A stretch of DNA of 41,955 nucleotides from Bacteroidales bacterium (GTDB lineage Bacteria > Bacteroidota > Bacteroidia > Bacteroidales > UBA3824): positions 1 to 41,955 of the forward strand of contig JAGCRY010000031.1 of assembly GCA_017964465.1 (NCBI GenBank). Direction: 5' to 3'. The notes beneath the pieces were generated by a model. That model saw nothing but the letters and a program-made list of their open reading frames with translations, ran no database searches and was not told the DNA's origin. The position numbers and the translations under genes were made by a program. This document shows positions 26,526-33,578 of this stretch, piece by piece. How positions within the stretch are numbered: position 1 is the stretch's first letter; each line of letters starts with the position of its first letter.

Positions 26526-26537
26526 GAAAATTCTTTG

Positions 26538-26619
26538 TACCCGGGACAGGAATCGAACCTGCATGCCTCTCAGCACTAGAACCTGAAACTAGCGCGTCTA
26601 CCAATTTCGCCACCCGGGC
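26538..26619 (-). tRNA. tRNA-Leu, anticodon CAG
   Basis: The 82-nucleotide gene reads from 26619. The acceptor stem GCCCGGG pairs with CCCGGGT (one G-U), with discriminator A. The D-arm is GCG...CGC with TTGGTAGA. The anticodon loop TTCAGGT gives CAG at 34-36 with G37. A short class II variable arm TGC...GCA follows, and a T-arm with TTCGATT. The anticodon stem has one U-U opposition at 31-39. CCA is not encoded. It has a strong promoter and terminator of its own. Confidence 0.95.
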
Positions 26620-26714: not shown

Positions 26715-28694
26715 CTACTTTGCTACGAGCCGTTGTGCCGTCAGTTTGTTTTGCTTCATGCCTTCCACGTATGTCTGCATGATGGCTTTGATTTGTGATT
26801 CCATGAAAGGCAATTGTGGAAAGTTGTCGCGGCGGTCGATGAGGTTGTTTTTCAACTGGAAATCCTTCTGATATTCAAAAATGCCAGTCAGTTTCTCGTT
26901 TTTATATTCAATCATCAGTGTATCAAGATAATACATCGACTGACCGTTCAAGTCGTTGAAGACATAATTGACAAATTTTGAGGAATCCTGTTCAAAAACG
27001 TTTTTGCCAAATGAAAAATATGGCTTGTCATACCCAATCATTGAGAGTAGGGTAGGGGTGATGTCCATCTGTTGCATCAGGCGTGTCGAGTCGCATTTGA
27101 TGGGCAGTTGACCGCCCGGCGTGTAGAAAAATATCGGAATCCTGAATTTACCATATTCGTTTGCATATTCGTCACGCGAGCCGGGTCCAGTGTGGTCGGC
27201 TGTGAAGACAAATATTGTGTTTTTGAACCAGTCCATTTTGCTTACTGTCTCAAAATATTTCTTCAAAGAATAGTCTGCGTATCTCACAGCCTTGTGCATC
27301 GGGATTGTGCCGTCGGGGAATCGCCCGTCGTCATATTTGGATGGAATTTTGAACGGATTGTGGGATGAGGCTGAAAATATGGTCAGCAAAAACGGTTTGC
27401 CGCTTTTCGCAATGCGGTCGCTTTCATTGGCGAAATATTGGAAGAATGGCTCGTCCCAAATCGACCACGTGCCGTCAAACTCGCTGTCGTTGTTGTACTC
27501 GTCCATTCCGTAATAATTGGGGAAGCCGATGGAGTTCGTGAAGCCTTTGAATCCCAAAGTCGTGTTTGGTGCGCCGTGGAAAAATGCACATTCATATCCC
27601 TCATTACCAAGCATTTCGGGAAGTCCTTGGAGAGTGTTGTTGGAATAGAAATAATAGCAATATGGCTCGATGTATCTCGGTATGCCCGCAAAAACGCCCG
27701 GCATACAATCTACGGAGCGGATGCCGTTTGCAAATGAATTCATGAAACAATAACTCTGCCCCAGTAGTGAATCCAAAAATGGAGTGTAGCCTTCAAAATT
27801 TCCGTTGTCCAAATCCCTGTTGAAATATCCGACGTATTCACTGCTGAAGCTTTCCATCAAAATTACCACAATGTTCGGTTTCTTCATTTCAGCCGTGTCG
27901 GAAGGCTCGTGAATGGGGTTGAAGATTGTCGTGAGCTGTTCCGATGGGTAGAAATCGAGGTTTTTATATCCGGTCTTGTGGATTGTCGTGATGACTGTGA
28001 ACGGTGTATTCAATACAATAGCCGCCTGCACGGGCTTTTTACAATAAATGTCCGCCGAATCTTGGCGCATCGGGTGCATTTTCAGTCCAAATCCGCCCCT
28101 CAGTCCGCCGATTGCCAATGTCATTGCAAGGACGAACAGTATCGGATGTACAGTATAATATACACCATTTGGCGCGTAGTCGTCGGCGTGTTTGTTGCGT
28201 TTGATGGGGTTGTAGTAGAATTTCCATAGCAGGAATATGCTTCCCGCGCCAAAAATCCAAACAGGCCAGTATTGCGTCACAGACTCCATGAGGATTTTGC
28301 CGATGTTGTTTTCATTACCAAATTCGGCGAAGAATGTCGCGGTCGTGCGCCGTCCGCCGAAATCGAAATATACAACGTCCGCGACGTTCATGAAAATGCC
28401 TATCGTGTTGATGATGAGATAGATATATTTAACGACACGTTGATAACTTACGGTGTCGCGGAATTTTGCGGGGACGGTCTGCATGGCAATGCAAAGGATG
28501 TTGAGGTAGCACAGTGCGCTGATGTCGAACCTGATGCCGCCGCCGCAGATTGTCATCATGTCGGAGAATGTGACGTCCTGGAATGTCGAGTGGTTCATCC
28601 AAAAGAAAAACCATCTTTCCGCCATGTACAGCAACATTGCAAATGCAAAGTTGACTGCCATTATCAATATTGGTTGCTTCCTGATGTTTTCCAT
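26715..28694 (-). CDS. LTA-synthase-family (sulfatase-fold) phosphotransferase, membrane bound
   Basis: The 659-residue protein has five N-terminal membrane helices (about 8-30, 52-72, 88-105, 142-160, 182-200) and a large periplasmic alkaline-phosphatase-fold domain from about 270. Metal and active-site features are NIVVILMESFSSEYVG (E281) and NGIRSVDCMPGVFAGIP, where S327 takes the place of the LtaS threonine. TADHTGPGS supplies further ligands. Family members move phosphoglycerol or phosphoethanolamine onto glycans or lipids. A diderm has no lipoteichoic acid, so the acceptor is probably a periplasmic glucan, lipid A or capsule. It follows the HD gene by 5 bases as last gene of the kelch operon. 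Confidence 0.92.
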   Translation of the reverse strand: MENIRKQPILIMAVNFAFAMLLYMAERWFFFWMNHSTFQDVTFSDMMTICGGGIRFDISALCYLNILCIAMQTVPAKFRDTVSYQRVVKYIYLIINTIGIFMNVADVVYFDFGGRRTTATFFAEFGNENNIGKILMESVTQYWPVWIFGAGSIFLLWKFYYNPIKRNKHADDYAPNGVYYTVHPILFVLAMTLAIGGLRGGFGLKMHPMRQDSADIYCKKPVQAAIVLNTPFTVITTIHKTGYKNLDFYPSEQLTTIFNPIHEPSDTAEMKKPNIVVILMESFSSEYVGYFNRDLDNGNFEGYTPFLDSLLGQSYCFMNSFANGIRSVDCMPGVFAGIPRYIEPYCYYFYSNNTLQGLPEMLGNEGYECAFFHGAPNTTLGFKGFTNSIGFPNYYGMDEYNNDSEFDGTWSIWDEPFFQYFANESDRIAKSGKPFLLTIFSASSHNPFKIPSKYDDGRFPDGTIPMHKAVRYADYSLKKYFETVSKMDWFKNTIFVFTADHTGPGSRDEYANEYGKFRIPIFFYTPGGQLPIKCDSTRLMQQMDITPTLLSMIGYDKPYFSFGKNVFEQDSSKFVNYVFNDLNGQSMYYLDTLMIEYKNEKLTGIFEYQKDFQLKNNLIDRRDNFPQLPFMESQIKAIMQTYVEGMKQNKLTAQRLVAK

Positions 28695-28699
28695 TTTTT

Positions 28700-29341
28700 T
28701 TAGTCAACCCATAAGAAATCTTCGTCGTCGTCGATGTTCTTGCGTTCAAGGATGTTTGTAGCGAGAGTGTCAGCAGTTTGAATCACGGCGCACAGCGGAC
28801 AGATGTCCCGCGCATTGTTGAGATTTTCCTTGATGTCCGCGCTCTGGAATGGCAGGTCCCATGCCGCCATGTGCCAGCGGATTGCCATTATCTCAAAGTC
28901 GCTCATTGAAAGACCGGCACGCAGGAGCACAATTACGGATTTTTCACCGTGTCCGAGCGGGAAGTTTGTATAGTCGAGTTTGAAGCCCTGTTTGGTCTGT
29001 ATCATTCCAAACTTGTCCTTCTTTTTCTTTGTGATTTTCTTGTAGATGTCAGCCTTGCAAACGTCATGGAGGAGCGCCGCAATCTTCACGCTGTCCTCGG
29101 GCAGATATTCCGCCATGTTTTTATTGAAGCCTATCATCTGTTCGCGTATTCCGAGAGCCACGCGGCAAACATTGAGCGAATGTTCAACAAGTCCGCCGTC
29201 GTAGTTGAGATGGAAGGACGATGAAGCCGGAGCGTCGAAAAAGCCGAGTTCCTGCAGTTCTTCAATCACGTCGTCCACGCCTTCGCGCTCGGTGGATTTG
29301 AGAAGATTTATAAATTCTTTTTTGAGGTTTTGATCGATCAT
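28700..29341 (-). CDS. HD-domain phosphohydrolase
   Basis: A 213-residue cytoplasmic protein. The HD metal site is readable: H54 in GGLVEHSLNV, H92-D93 in ALLHDVCKAD, and D191 in QTADTLATN. Extra histidines lie at H131 (GHGEKS) and H157 (RWHMAAW). This resembles the HD part of YhaM-type 3'-5' exonucleases, but it lacks their nucleic-acid-binding OB domain, and the substrate is unknown. Its ATG overlaps the DUF4907 stop by four bases (ATGA), and the LTA-synthase-like gene begins 5 bases after it, so it is translated with both envelope proteins. Confidence 0.9.
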   Translation of the reverse strand: MIDQNLKKEFINLLKSTEREGVDDVIEELQELGFFDAPASSSFHLNYDGGLVEHSLNVCRVALGIREQMIGFNKNMAEYLPEDSVKIAALLHDVCKADIYKKITKKKKDKFGMIQTKQGFKLDYTNFPLGHGEKSVIVLLRAGLSMSDFEIMAIRWHMAAWDLPFQSADIKENLNNARDICPLCAVIQTADTLATNILERKNIDDDEDFLWVD

Positions 29342-29724
29342 TTTTTTGATTTTATTGAGCCGTCTTGCGATAGGATTCCAAGTTTAATGAGGTCTTCCGT
29401 GGTGAGAGCTGGCATGTTGGATGTGTTCATCATCTTGAATACCACCACTTTGCCTGTATTGAGCGCGTCTTCTGCCGTTTCAAAATGATGGAATCCTTCT
29501 ACGACGGGTATTATTGTTTGGTGAATGAATTTGCGTCCATTTACGGATATTGTGTATGAGTATCCGTCGGTTGTGTCCAAAGGCTGTGCCTCGACGGAAA
29601 ATGTTGTCCCTTGGGCTGTTGTGTCAAATTTCAGGTGTGTGGGCTGTTCCTGCCCTTGTTTTCCGCCGGCGCAACCCATTGCTAATGCCGCGATTATCAG
29701 TGATGAAGTTATCAGGCGTCGCAT
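29338..29724 (-). CDS. DUF4907-domain lipoprotein
   Basis: The protein has 128 residues from the ATG at 29724 (the frame is open upstream but that part overlaps the preceding gene). A signal peptide with lipobox LAMGC makes it an exported lipoprotein. The body matches DUF4907: YSYTISVNGRKFIHQTIIP, FHHFETAEDALNTGKVV and a closing LTTEDLIKLGI, with the family's I-H-Q-x-x-I-P core. Function is unknown. It sits 14 bases after the barrel protein gene and overlaps the HD gene, within the operon that begins with a kelch-like lipoprotein. Confidence 0.88.
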   Translation of the reverse strand: MRRLITSSLIIAALAMGCAGGKQGQEQPTHLKFDTTAQGTTFSVEAQPLDTTDGYSYTISVNGRKFIHQTIIPVVEGFHHFETAEDALNTGKVVVFKMMNTSNMPALTTEDLIKLGILSQDGSIKSKK

Positions 29725-29738
29725 GTTCCTTCGTTTTT

Positions 29739-30500
29739 TTAGAAAATTCTGCTCAGGAAGTAAGACCTCTTTACTGTCCACTGCGAGAGCGGTATCGTGA
29801 ATGCAAAGTTTGCAAAGAAGGTCATGTTGTTCATGTCCTTGAATGGTTTGGACTCCTGACCGCCGCCCAATGTTATTTCGTAGTCCTTGTTAAAAATGGA
29901 CATGGGCGTCATGCCAATTCTGAAGTTGATGATTGTGAAGTTGAAACCAACGATGATTGGCACGTTAATTTTGTTGCGGGCTTCGTTGTAGTCCTTTGCG
30001 CTGAGTTTTTTGCCGTCAACTTTTTGGGTTGTGGTTATGTTGAGATTGAAGTCCACTTGAGTTCCAAAATAGAAGTAAGCCTGGCGGTTGTAGAGTTCGT
30101 CGCTGAGTTTGATGTAGAGCGGGACGCCGAGAGAGAGAACGCGGTTACATTCAGTGAGTTCCACGTCTTTTTTCGGCGTTTCGTATTTGTAGGAATTGCC
30201 CCACCAGTGAGCTGTGATGCCGGTTATGAAACCTATATTGTCATTCTTGCAGTCGTGGTGGAATTGCAGGCCGAGATTGAAGCCCGGTGTGTATCCGAGG
30301 GATTCGATTGGCTCGAGGTGCACGAGGCCTTCGCCGCCTTTGAAATATTTGTTATTGCAGCGTTCCGACGGTCCGCCGTTGAAACTGTTGCTGAAGCCGA
30401 GTTCAAGTACAAAATAGTCAAACTCGAAGTGCCTGCCCTTCTGCGCTGAGGCGATGCAGGGCAGTATCGCCAGCAATAATATGATGATTTTCTTGTTCAT
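29739..30500 (-). CDS. Outer-membrane beta-barrel protein (PorT-like size)
   Basis: A 253-residue protein with a clear signal peptide (1-19, CIASAQ). It then consists of alternating strands with aromatic girdle residues (FNLGLQFHHDC, GVPLYIKLSDELYNRQAYFYFGTQVDFNL, VGFNFTIINFRIGM) and ends in a phenylalanine (FLSRIF). That fits an eight-to-ten-stranded outer-membrane barrel. No specific family can be named. It is placed 17 bases after the kelch-like lipoprotein and before the DUF4907 lipoprotein, suggesting that these three form a surface complex (inference). Confidence 0.8.
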   Translation of the reverse strand: MNKKIIILLLAILPCIASAQKGRHFEFDYFVLELGFSNSFNGGPSERCNNKYFKGGEGLVHLEPIESLGYTPGFNLGLQFHHDCKNDNIGFITGITAHWWGNSYKYETPKKDVELTECNRVLSLGVPLYIKLSDELYNRQAYFYFGTQVDFNLNITTTQKVDGKKLSAKDYNEARNKINVPIIVGFNFTIINFRIGMTPMSIFNKDYEITLGGGQESKPFKDMNNMTFFANFAFTIPLSQWTVKRSYFLSRIF

Positions 30501-30517
30501 GTCTTTTCGATATTATA

Positions 30518-32140
30518 TTATGGACGATAAACCCATTCTGAATTGTTGTAAATTACATAGTCGCCATCGCCTTGTTGTGCGCCGCCCACTACGAACGCCC
30601 TGTCGCCGCCATTGATGACCGTGGCGCGTGATACACGGCTGTTCAGTCCGTCTTCATTCATGTATGGAGCGCGTAATTCGGGAACGAAATTGGTGCTCAT
30701 GTCATATTTTAGCATGTCGGAATAATATTCAATCTTGCCGTTTTCGTCCACGCCTTCGCCCATGCCGTAGTAGATTATTCCATCTACCGAAAATGCTGAT
30801 CCGAAAGCGCGTGGCTTGAAGTTGTATTCCATGTTGTATTCATCGCGGAGGTTGTCATTGAAATGACGTGGGTTTTTGCTTGTTGGCCATGAGAACGTGT
30901 AGGAATCGGGATGGCTGTTGACGGGCATATTGAAGTGGCAGGGGATGAACTCGTCATAATATTTGGTCTTGCCGTTTTCGCCTTCGCCCTTGCCGCCGAT
31001 GATGTAGGCGTCGTTTTCCACAACAACCACCGATGCGCCAGAACGCCGTCCAAAGCCGAAGTCTTCGGTCATTTGGAGGAAGTAGCCGCTTGTCGGGCTG
31101 TATTCCTTCTTTTCGTCCCTGTCCATCATGAAGAGGTAGATGTCTGAATGATAATGGGTTTGTCCGTTGTGTTGGTATTCGCCAAGTCCCATGAATCCCC
31201 ATTCCTGTATTGAGAAGCCTATGCCGCCGGTGCGTGGAAGGCCTTGGAACGGTTGAAGGAGTATTACATCGCTGTCTTCGCCACGGTATGATACTTTTGC
31301 CCAAAGGCGTGTGTCAATGTCATAAACGAAGAAATCCTGGTTGTAGTCGGTGATTTTGAGTGCGTCGTCAGTTGTTTTGCAACCGCAGCCGACATAGAGG
31401 AGATGGTGTGCAACGCTGCCGTTGTCAACATAGTTGAGACCGAAACCTACTGCGCCCCACAATGCCATTACTTCATTGCGGATTTTGAGGGTCGGGATTT
31501 GTTCGTAGGTCTTTTTCTTTGAACTGTAGCACCACAGGTCGTTATAGAGTGTTGCGCCGGCGCGTCCCATGCCGAAGAATGTGAGTGTGTCGCCGTCCAC
31601 TATTGTCATGATGTTCAGGCAGTCGGAGCGTCCGCAGAGGATTGAATTGTTTTGTAATCCATTGGTTTCAAACCATTTGTTGTGCGGATGGTCGGTAGTT
31701 ACTACGAGAGTTTCGGGATTGTAGGCAATTCGTCCGTCGGATGTTTTTACGTAACTGCGTATTGAATATTCTGTTTCACATTCGAGGTCGTTGATTCTTG
31801 TGAAGAACGGTTCGCTTGGGTTTACGTTGCCATTATGAGGGCTGAAGTTGTCGTTGATTGTAGGTACGTTGTTACCCTTGACCCAGCAGTGGCCATATTC
31901 AACGATGTCGGATGTCGCGACGTATTCAAAACCGCCTTTAATGTTCAGCCATACGTCCCAAACTTTATCCGCGCTGTCTGGTCTTGCGGCGCAGGGGAGC
32001 ACGGCGTTTGTGCTGTCTGTGGTGAATGCAGTCTCGTAATATACGTCAAAGACTGTGTGCATCTCGTCGTCTGTCTTGCAGGCGTCAAGTAATGCAGCGC
32101 AGAGCGTGGTGGCTATTAAAGCAGAAATAAATCTTTTCAT
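30518..32140 (-). CDS. Kelch-like beta-propeller lipoprotein with fibronectin-like N-terminal domain
   Basis: The protein has 540 residues from the ATG at 32140. The frame continues upstream, but the strong promoter at 32208-32177 places the transcript start downstream of those codons. The signal peptide ends in LLDAC (lipid on C21). A fibronectin-III-like domain common in Bacteroidota surface proteins follows (EYGHCWVKGNNVPT, CETEYSIRSYVKTSDG). Then come repeated kelch-type blades (TFFGMGRAGATLYNDLWCY, GFMGLGEYQHNGQTHYHSDI, AYIIGGKGEG, IIYYGMGEGVDENG, AFVVGGAQQG). It likely faces the cell surface and binds a ligand or glycan; no catalytic residues are evident. Confidence 0.85.
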   Translation of the reverse strand: MKRFISALIATTLCAALLDACKTDDEMHTVFDVYYETAFTTDSTNAVLPCAARPDSADKVWDVWLNIKGGFEYVATSDIVEYGHCWVKGNNVPTINDNFSPHNGNVNPSEPFFTRINDLECETEYSIRSYVKTSDGRIAYNPETLVVTTDHPHNKWFETNGLQNNSILCGRSDCLNIMTIVDGDTLTFFGMGRAGATLYNDLWCYSSKKKTYEQIPTLKIRNEVMALWGAVGFGLNYVDNGSVAHHLLYVGCGCKTTDDALKITDYNQDFFVYDIDTRLWAKVSYRGEDSDVILLQPFQGLPRTGGIGFSIQEWGFMGLGEYQHNGQTHYHSDIYLFMMDRDEKKEYSPTSGYFLQMTEDFGFGRRSGASVVVVENDAYIIGGKGEGENGKTKYYDEFIPCHFNMPVNSHPDSYTFSWPTSKNPRHFNDNLRDEYNMEYNFKPRAFGSAFSVDGIIYYGMGEGVDENGKIEYYSDMLKYDMSTNFVPELRAPYMNEDGLNSRVSRATVINGGDRAFVVGGAQQGDGDYVIYNNSEWVYRP

Positions 32141-32176
32141 TGTTTTGTGGTCAAACAAGTAATATATTACAGGCTG

Positions 32177-32208
32177 CAAAATTAGTCTAAAATTGCTTAA
32201 AACACAAA
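32177..32208 (-). promoter_or_regulatory. Promoter of the kelch/barrel/DUF4907/HD/LTA operon
   Basis: On the minus strand TTTG (32208-32205), exactly 20 bases, TAATTTTG (32184-32177), a full consensus match. Transcription would begin about 30 bases before the ATG at 32140. Confidence 0.8.
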
Positions 32209-32240: not shown

Positions 32241-33578
32241 TTAGTTCTCTTTTTCTGTAAGATGCTGGGCAGCAAGTCGTTTCCTGCGCATTTTGTGGCG
32301 GCGGTAGATTCTCATTTTCCTGATGATGATGAACATCAAGACTATGACCGTGACGCTTATTATGAAAGTCACCATCTTCCAGTTGAGGTGGTTGCCCTTC
32401 ACTCTCGACCACATTTCAATCAACGCCTCGTTTCTGTCGCCCGCGTCGCGCATAAGCACACAGCGGTCAATGATGGACTTGTCGGGGAATTGTATGGGAT
32501 TGATACACACGCTGTCAGCGTCTTCGCCGAAAAAATATGAAACGTCGTGAGGCTCATATTCTTCCTCGTCGATGAGTTCTTCGAGGACTTCCGGCGTGGC
32601 AATCGTTGAAACGTCGCCGGCATAATCCATGTTGCGCAGTGCATTTTCACTGCTGCATAGGAAGTTTATGAAATAGGACGCCGCCTTTACGTTTTTGGCG
32701 TATTTTGGAATGACCCAGCCGTCAATCCAGGCGTTGCTGCCTTCTTCGGGGATTGAATAGTCGAGTTCCACGCCATCCTCCGCCTCCTCGAGTGCCCATT
32801 GAGCGTCGCCAGCCCATGTGAGGTTCAACCACACTTTGCCCTGACATACGCGGTCTTTGCCGAAGTCCGCCTCCCATCCTGCAACCTGCGGTTTTGCCAT
32901 GAACAGCACCTTTTCCACGGCTTCGAGGTTTTCGTCCGAGATGTCGCAGGCGAGTTGCTGACGGTCGGCTTTCCCGTCCATAATTTCCTGATGTTTAGCG
33001 TATTGTATCATCACTGAATACACGTCGCGGAAGGCGTCTTTGATGAAAATCTGACCACGGAATTTTGGGTTTTGGATTGCGCCCCATGTCTTTACTTCCT
33101 CCTCGTCAACGTATGCCTTGTTATAGAGGAAACCTGTCGTTCCCCAAAAATATCCAACGGCATAGTCAGCGACACGGATTGTGTCGGAGGGCGAAATGAG
33201 TTCCATTTTTTCACGTATCCACGGCGAGACGTTCATGAAGTTGTTTTCTGTGGTCTCCACGAAGTTTGTGTCGATTTTTTGTAACAAACCTTTCCTCAGC
33301 ATCCTCTCAATGATGTATTCTGACGGGCATACAACGTCATAGTCTTCATGCCCGACTTCAATTTCGGTAAGCATGTTTTCATTTATGTCGTAGGTTTGAT
33401 ATATGATTTTCACGGGTTCGCCGGTCTCCTTTTCATAATATTCCTCAAACTCGGGAATCAGTTCCAAGTCCATGTAATCCGCCCAGTTATAGACTTTGAG
33501 CGTGTGGGCGCGGTCGGTCTGCGCGGCGGCTGATAGCGTCGCAAGCATGAGAGTGGATATTATAAAAAACTTCTTCAC
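32241..33578 (-). CDS. potD: Spermidine/putrescine-binding protein PotD with C-terminal membrane anchor
   Basis: The protein has 445 residues. A signal peptide (1-20, SAAAQ) is followed by a PotD/PotF-type binding domain: LKVYNWADYMD, YDVVCPSEYIIERM, LDYSIPEEGSNAWIDGWVIPK. These proteins capture polyamines in the periplasm. The usual length is about 350 residues. Here the protein runs on through a hydrophobic helix (about 401-419, MVTFIISVTVIVLMFIII) into a very basic tail (about 420-445, RKMRIYRRHKMRRKR). That predicts an inner-membrane anchored binding protein with the tail in the cytoplasm. Its start overlaps potC by four bases. Confidence 0.93.
   Translation of the reverse strand: MKKFFIISTLMLATLSAAAQTDRAHTLKVYNWADYMDLELIPEFEEYYEKETGEPVKIIYQTYDINENMLTEIEVGHEDYDVVCPSEYIIERMLRKGLLQKIDTNFVETTENNFMNVSPWIREKMELISPSDTIRVADYAVGYFWGTTGFLYNKAYVDEEEVKTWGAIQNPKFRGQIFIKDAFRDVYSVMIQYAKHQEIMDGKADRQQLACDISDENLEAVEKVLFMAKPQVAGWEADFGKDRVCQGKVWLNLTWAGDAQWALEEAEDGVELDYSIPEEGSNAWIDGWVIPKYAKNVKAASYFINFLCSSENALRNMDYAGDVSTIATPEVLEELIDEEEYEPHDVSYFFGEDADSVCINPIQFPDKSIIDRCVLMRDAGDRNEALIEMWSRVKGNHLNWKMVTFIISVTVIVLMFIIIRKMRIYRRHKMRRKRLAAQHLTEKEN

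Follow-up and report, generated by a model that had tools for sequence, protein, structure and literature searches.

A conserved operon of one Bacteroidales genus joins a kelch–barrel–DUF4907 module, tentatively an outer-membrane complex, to an LtaS-type enzyme

The kelch epimerase NanM of Escherichia coli is paired with the porin NanC. LtaS, the lipoteichoic acid (LTA) synthase, uses Thr300 at its nucleophile position. Here, we describe an operon that holds a kelch protein, a small barrel and an LtaS-like enzyme together. It lies in a 41,955-nucleotide (nt) stretch of DNA from a Bacteroidales bacterium (hereafter, the window), derived from contig 150 of a 2.37-Mb draft genome with 64% completeness, and comprises five adjacent minus-strand genes in the order kelch, barrel, DUF4907, HD and LtaS-like (26715-32140). 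The operon is real, conserved and of modular origin, its five-gene assembly is genus-specific, and the finding of broader reach is that kelch, barrel and DUF4907 proteins are associated across the order. As a tentative reading, to which we give somewhat less than an even chance, these three proteins would form an outer-membrane complex that in this genus is coupled to a phospholipid-head-group transferase. In the literature searched, no paper names DUF4907 and none connects LTA synthase with Bacteroides and phosphoglycerol. An earlier note on this DNA knew of no described system with this content, and we likewise found no description of a kelch/barrel/DUF4907/LtaS-type set in those portions of the searched literature that were available. 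The elements of the operon, with lengths in amino acids (aa), are:

32176..32207, minus strand: promoter of Bacteroidota type, TTG-N20-TAATTTTGC, 36-67 nt 5' of the kelch ATG
30518..32140, minus strand: kelch beta-propeller lipoprotein, 540 aa (Pfam kelch; lipobox Cys21)
29739..30500, minus strand: predicted outer-membrane beta-barrel, 253 aa, with signal peptide (weak Pfam barrel matches; 12-member alignment)
29338..29724, minus strand: DUF4907 lipoprotein, 128 aa (PF16250; lipobox Cys18)
28700..29341, minus strand: HD phosphohydrolase, 213 aa, phage-type, no signal peptide (PF01966; PHROG 28876)
26715..28694, minus strand: sulfatase-fold enzyme of LtaS/osmoregulated periplasmic glucan (OPG) transferase type, 659 aa (PF00884; PDB 3lxq, 2w5r)

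The coordinates and a pattern scan bear out the genes, positions, intergenic gaps (17, 14, −4 and 5 bases) and single promoter match given by the earlier note. Bacteroidota promoters follow a -33/-7 consensus, TTG-N17-23-TAnnTTTG, and across the 5.5 kb the coding strand matches it only at 32207-32176. Within the genus, all 11 loci with upstream sequence have a TAnnTTTG -7 box 31-45 nt 5' of the kelch ATG, a count that excludes the twelfth kelch locus (L035), whose sequence begins inside the gene. The short gaps, the one promoter match and the gene order kept in relatives support a single operon.

Conservation was followed in 18 genomes of the genus, which are also the entire family sample. The LtaS-like orthologue (62-90% identity) and the DUF4907 gene are present in 18/18, and the two always adjoin or have the HD gene alone between them. 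Kelch and barrel genes of the operon type lie 5' of this pair in 12/18 genomes, so that the genes proved to be kept together within the genus, as the earlier proposal had them. The HD gene stands between DUF4907 and LtaS-like genes in 11/18 genomes and is missing from seven, and one genome (G126) carries kelch and barrel without HD. The gaps are short throughout (kelch-barrel, 10-26 nt; barrel-DUF4907, 3-15; DUF4907-HD, -4 to 45; HD-LtaS, 1-43), and the kelch proteins of relatives with the same order and short gaps are 35-66% identical. The upstream flank varies by clade and consists of PotD, a 278-aa protein, a cysK-like gene, tRNAs or an eno-like gene (the cysK-like and eno-like labels were read from protein starts rather than from a family search); the gene 5' of kelch is not potD in most genus relatives, and purL-like genes lie directly 5' of DUF4907 in some genomes without kelch-barrel. 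Since the flanking genes differ between clades, the cassette itself is the retained unit, and the recurrence of order and short gaps despite divergent kelch sequences and changed flanks points to more than chance. In a tree of the LtaS-like proteins, of which only the intra-genus clades were used (the outgroup row, L125, has a very long branch and was unsuitable), the genomes without kelch-barrel fall into two clades close to G126. A simple account of this distribution would therefore be an ancestral kelch-barrel-DUF4907-LtaS cassette that underwent two losses.

The kelch-barrel pair extends well beyond the genus. The kelch protein matches PF13418 (E=1.1e-10), has Kelch_4, Kelch_6 and Kelch_1 above the Pfam cut-off, and carries an extra N-terminal domain of ~150 aa. 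The barrel has weak Pfam matches below cut-off (PorP_SprF, E=0.005; OMP_b-brl_2, E=0.013) and a conserved C-terminus, SQWTxxRSYxLSxIF, in a 12-member alignment. Barrel and DUF4907 profiles were searched against an order-wide sample of 393 Bacteroidales genomes, 36 of which matched the barrel profile at E<=1e-6, five of them within the genus. Among the 41 listed extra-genus barrel places, 20 were examined, from 18 genomes; a kelch gene lies directly 5' of the barrel on the same strand in 19 of the 20, and the twentieth (L065) ends at a contig end. The kelch-barrel pair is thus a real conserved module. A second, distant kelch-barrel pair of the genus (L050-L052, L054-L058) adjoins a protein of TPR-PD40-OmpA type, as scanned for two such proteins and one barrel from L050. 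Antisense to the barrel, the window also holds a 299-aa open frame (29550-30449, plus strand), and long antisense frames occur in L018 and L036 as well; the frame over the barrel is probably a composition effect.

The DUF4907 protein matches PF16250 (E=2.6e-14; 53 bits vs a cut-off of 25), as do all 18 genus members, and the family occurs in 60/393 order genomes, 55 of these outside the genus. All but one (G135) of the 55 extra-genus loci were examined, and 52 were readable. A kelch gene is the immediate same-strand neighbor of DUF4907 in 23/52, encoding either a protein of 320-401 aa that overlaps or touches DUF4907, or a giant protein of 1925-3004 aa just downstream. The 54 loci contain 25 kelch open reading frames among 534, so that nearly every kelch frame there is DUF4907's neighbor. 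A kelch-barrel pair is found elsewhere in 19/29 genomes without a kelch neighbor vs 1/23 with one (Fisher p=7e-6), and ten extra-genus DUF4907 genomes have neither. At the genome level, DUF4907 is present in 20/26 extra-genus genomes with strong barrel matches vs 35/362 without; the family totals of 110 and 119 in this co-occurrence test are assumed, and the Fisher tests treat genomes as independent, ignoring shared ancestry. Taken together, kelch adjacency and genome co-occurrence suggest that DUF4907 probably functions with kelch proteins, whether in cis or in trans. The earlier suggestion that the two lipoproteins and the barrel belong together is thus strengthened, both by the 19/20 kelch-barrel loci and by this DUF4907-kelch association.

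Several further observations concern the DUF4907 loci. The gene lies immediately 5' of the giant kelch proteins at L022, L090, L104, L110, L114 and L118, and overlaps or touches a kelch gene at L084, L085, L088, L095, L096, L098, L100, L108, L109, L111 and L113. At these eleven loci, the kelch gene is divergent from genes for a protein of 430 aa and a FadL-like barrel of 415 aa, the latter a weak match tested in L095 only. Proteins of 279-290 aa and 144-148 aa with no clear Pfam match were seen at L064, L076, L029 and L031, and this pair adjoins kelch-barrel in two genomes and DUF4907 in two others; since the 279-290 aa protein belongs to a large multi-copy family found in 162/393 genomes, we put little weight on it as a shared partner and set it aside. 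A structure model of DUF4907 from a two-row alignment (predicted local distance difference test [pLDDT] 60.1) had a best Foldseek E of 0.25 and a best VIA-align Z of 4.0, to unrelated folds. Among PDB sequences, profiles of the HD protein, DUF4907 and the barrel found chance-level matches only.

The lipobox regions provide hints toward localization. According to PMC5080379, acidic residues after the lipid-bearing Cys direct Bacteroidota lipoproteins to surface export. The window kelch protein continues from Cys21 with KTDDE, which is surface-export-like; Cys21 and Asp25 are invariant in an 11-member genus alignment, and each of the 11 complete kelch proteins from the genus carries two or more acids within positions +2 to +6. 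The automated lipobox rule passed nine of these 11, the window protein and that of L034, where it took the wrong Cys, being re-read by eye. Cys18 of DUF4907, invariant in 18/18 genus members, is followed in the window by AGGKQ, with no export-like acids, and the acidic export rule was passed by 0/17 machine-read genus DUF4907 proteins and 1/29 outside the genus. With acids after the kelch Cys and none after that of DUF4907, the kelch protein is likely on the cell surface and DUF4907 on the periplasmic face of the outer membrane.

The last gene encodes an enzyme of the LtaS/OPG-transferase type, as the earlier note had recognized. Its sulfatase domain matches PF00884 (E=2.6e-30; 106.2 bits vs a cut-off of 25), and the nearest NCBIfam families are LTA synthase and the OPG phosphoglycerol transferases, both far below their equivalog cut-offs (72.1 vs 970 for LtaS; 46.6 vs 572 and 44 vs 574 for the OPG transferases). 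The best solved relatives are VP1736 (3lxq, E=2e-38) and LtaS (2w5r, E=1e-17). The catalytic-type residues E281, S327, H445, D500 and H501 are invariant in 18/18 genus members, and we infer that S327 is the nucleophile, a position at which HMMER aligns the protein to 2w5r with a shift. Hydropathy places hydrophobic stretches at ~7-27, 53-76, 87-110 and 177-204, in the N-terminal third, ahead of a catalytic domain at ~270-570. We read the protein as a putative inner-membrane phospho-alcohol transferase with a periplasmic catalytic domain. The genus also holds LtaS-type paralogues, ~40% identical (L062, at G000:C101; L059; L060; and L061), and GRKSIDxMP replaces GxRSVDCMP in the three that were tested (L059, L060 and L061).

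The HD protein matches PF01966 (E=3e-7), and its best viral-family relatives are PHROG 28876 (E=4.6e-32) and PHROG 5889. Its profile at E<=1e-20 finds 2/119 order genomes, one of them the window's own. When a role in phage defense was considered for it, PADLOC gave a weak Cas3-HD match alone (15.7 bits). Judged by these matches, the HD gene is a rare phage-type gene.

According to our proposal, the five genes would be transcribed together and encode a surface module that spans the envelope. In this module, the kelch lipoprotein would be displayed at the surface and held in the outer membrane by the co-inherited barrel, with the DUF4907 lipoprotein as their partner on the periplasmic side. The inner-membrane LtaS-like enzyme would take a phosphoglycerol or phosphoethanolamine head group from a membrane phospholipid, and the acceptor would be an envelope glycan or lipid bound or carried by the kelch/barrel/DUF4907 complex. 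The HD protein would be a later, dispensable addition acting on a phosphorylated compound of the cytoplasm. A wider version, which we consider unlikely, envisages a new, order-wide outer-membrane machine for capture or presentation of surface ligands, its parts scattered in most families, with the LtaS-type wiring of this genus coupling a phosphoglycerol-like decoration of an envelope polymer to the surface propeller across both membranes. If the proposed complex exists, three widespread families of unknown function would gain a first handle in the form of a testable outer-membrane assembly, and the question would arise what is decorated by an LtaS-type enzyme in Gram-negative Bacteroidales.

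Several results weigh against this proposal. Six genus genomes have DUF4907-LtaS without a kelch-barrel of the operon type, the operon contains no acceptor gene (glycosyltransferase or O-antigen gene), and the structure model of the barrel, built from a two-row alignment, is unusable (pLDDT 29.6). By the automated rule, the acidic export signal is present in 8/19 kelch proteins of kelch-barrel pairs outside the genus, five of which have no detected lipobox, and in 9/14 lipobox-bearing kelch neighbors of DUF4907, so the signal is not universal. When 51 chosen genomes were searched with the genus LtaS profile (E<=1e-40), LtaS-type genes were found in 20: 10/26 kelch-barrel genomes, 7/14 that have DUF4907 without a barrel match, and 3/11 that have neither. 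The module thus works without such an enzyme in the other kelch-barrel genomes, and the LtaS-type enzyme does not track it. Nor did the LtaS profile match any of the three genes flanking DUF4907 on each side at the extra-genus loci examined. The earlier view of all five genes as one system is therefore not supported: outside the genus, LtaS was not seen near DUF4907 at those loci, HD is rare and LtaS is not tied to the module. Both the LtaS-like gene and the HD gene seem to have been added within this genus, and a shared origin of all five genes is ruled out by their distribution across the order.

Among the alternatives, the strongest, although we still regard it as doubtful, is that kelch, barrel and DUF4907 constitute a surface module for capture or uptake of a small vitamin-like or micronutrient ligand, by a logic like that of BtuG, and that the LtaS-like and HD genes are merely co-transcribed. 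In support of this notion, cobalamin riboswitches were identified in family f45 at L071:2611-2789, L072:407-585 and L075:7417-7599 (124.3, 126.4 and 122.9 bits), in 3/3 loci that reach that far; the fourth f45 locus, L067, ends short of the region. Each riboswitch is followed by overlapping or tightly packed genes for a DUF4465 protein bearing a type IX sorting tail, a further protein with a type IX secretion (T9SS) tail, a 229-aa lipoprotein and, at the 3' end, the kelch-barrel pair (protein families assigned on L072). PMC13398666 describes DUF4465 as a vitamin B12-binding family often near beta-propellers. At least one family can thus use the kelch-barrel module to capture a ligand; this lends substantial weight to the alternative, and DUF4465 operons ending in kelch-barrel may represent a new type of B12 acquisition operon. 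However, scans for cobalamin riboswitches came up empty in the window, in the further genus loci covered and in 17 other kelch-barrel loci; next to the window operon, a TonB-dependent receptor was not identified; and the adjacency of DUF4907 and LtaS in 18/18 genus genomes speaks against this alternative.

Less probable still is that the core consists of DUF4907, as a periplasmic accessory lipoprotein, and the LtaS-like phosphotransferase, with kelch and barrel placed upstream and being lost. The genus data favor such a core, whose two genes are retained in 18/18 genomes vs 12/18 for kelch-barrel, the latter absent from two clades of the LtaS tree, but in the wider order it is kelch to which DUF4907 is linked (a neighbor in 23/52 loci), and the maps of those loci show no LtaS profile match within three genes of it on either side. 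Two neighbors of the operon on the same strand are unrelated to it:

26537..26619, minus strand: tRNA-Leu(CAG), downstream neighbor outside the operon (ARAGORN)
32241..33578, minus strand: PotD-like spermidine-binding protein, neighbor only, last gene of an upstream potABCD-type operon

Although such neighbors show that co-directional housekeeping genes do adjoin here, the idea that the five genes are themselves adjacent by chance is very improbable, and chance clustering was ruled out by order and gaps conserved across differing flanks and diverged kelch proteins, together with the single promoter pattern match.

The locus bears partial likenesses to four described systems. The window barrel resembles PorP/SprF through a weak match to PorP_SprF, and PorE-like TPR-PD40-OmpA proteins adjoin the second kelch-barrel pair, whereas PF11751 scores 16.8 vs 22.3 bits and the operon has no type IX core gene. 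NanM/NanC offers the same pairing of a kelch propeller with a small barrel, but the window kelch is a lipoprotein, and the NANM profile scores E=0.016 (14.5 bits vs a cut-off of 45). BtuG differs in that the partner here is a small barrel of ~255 aa and not a TonB-dependent receptor, that the propeller is of kelch type and that the window-genus loci scanned lack a cobalamin riboswitch; it is alike in joining a propeller lipoprotein to an outer-membrane barrel partner, and in f45 the pair adjoins DUF4465 under such a riboswitch. Finally, unlike LtaS, the window enzyme has Ser327, in GxRSVDCMP, and unlike LtaS/OPG systems its operon carries no LTA or OPG genes, yet it shares with LtaS and OpgB (MdoB) the sulfatase-fold domain, the membrane-embedded N-terminal part and the conserved E281, D500 and H501.

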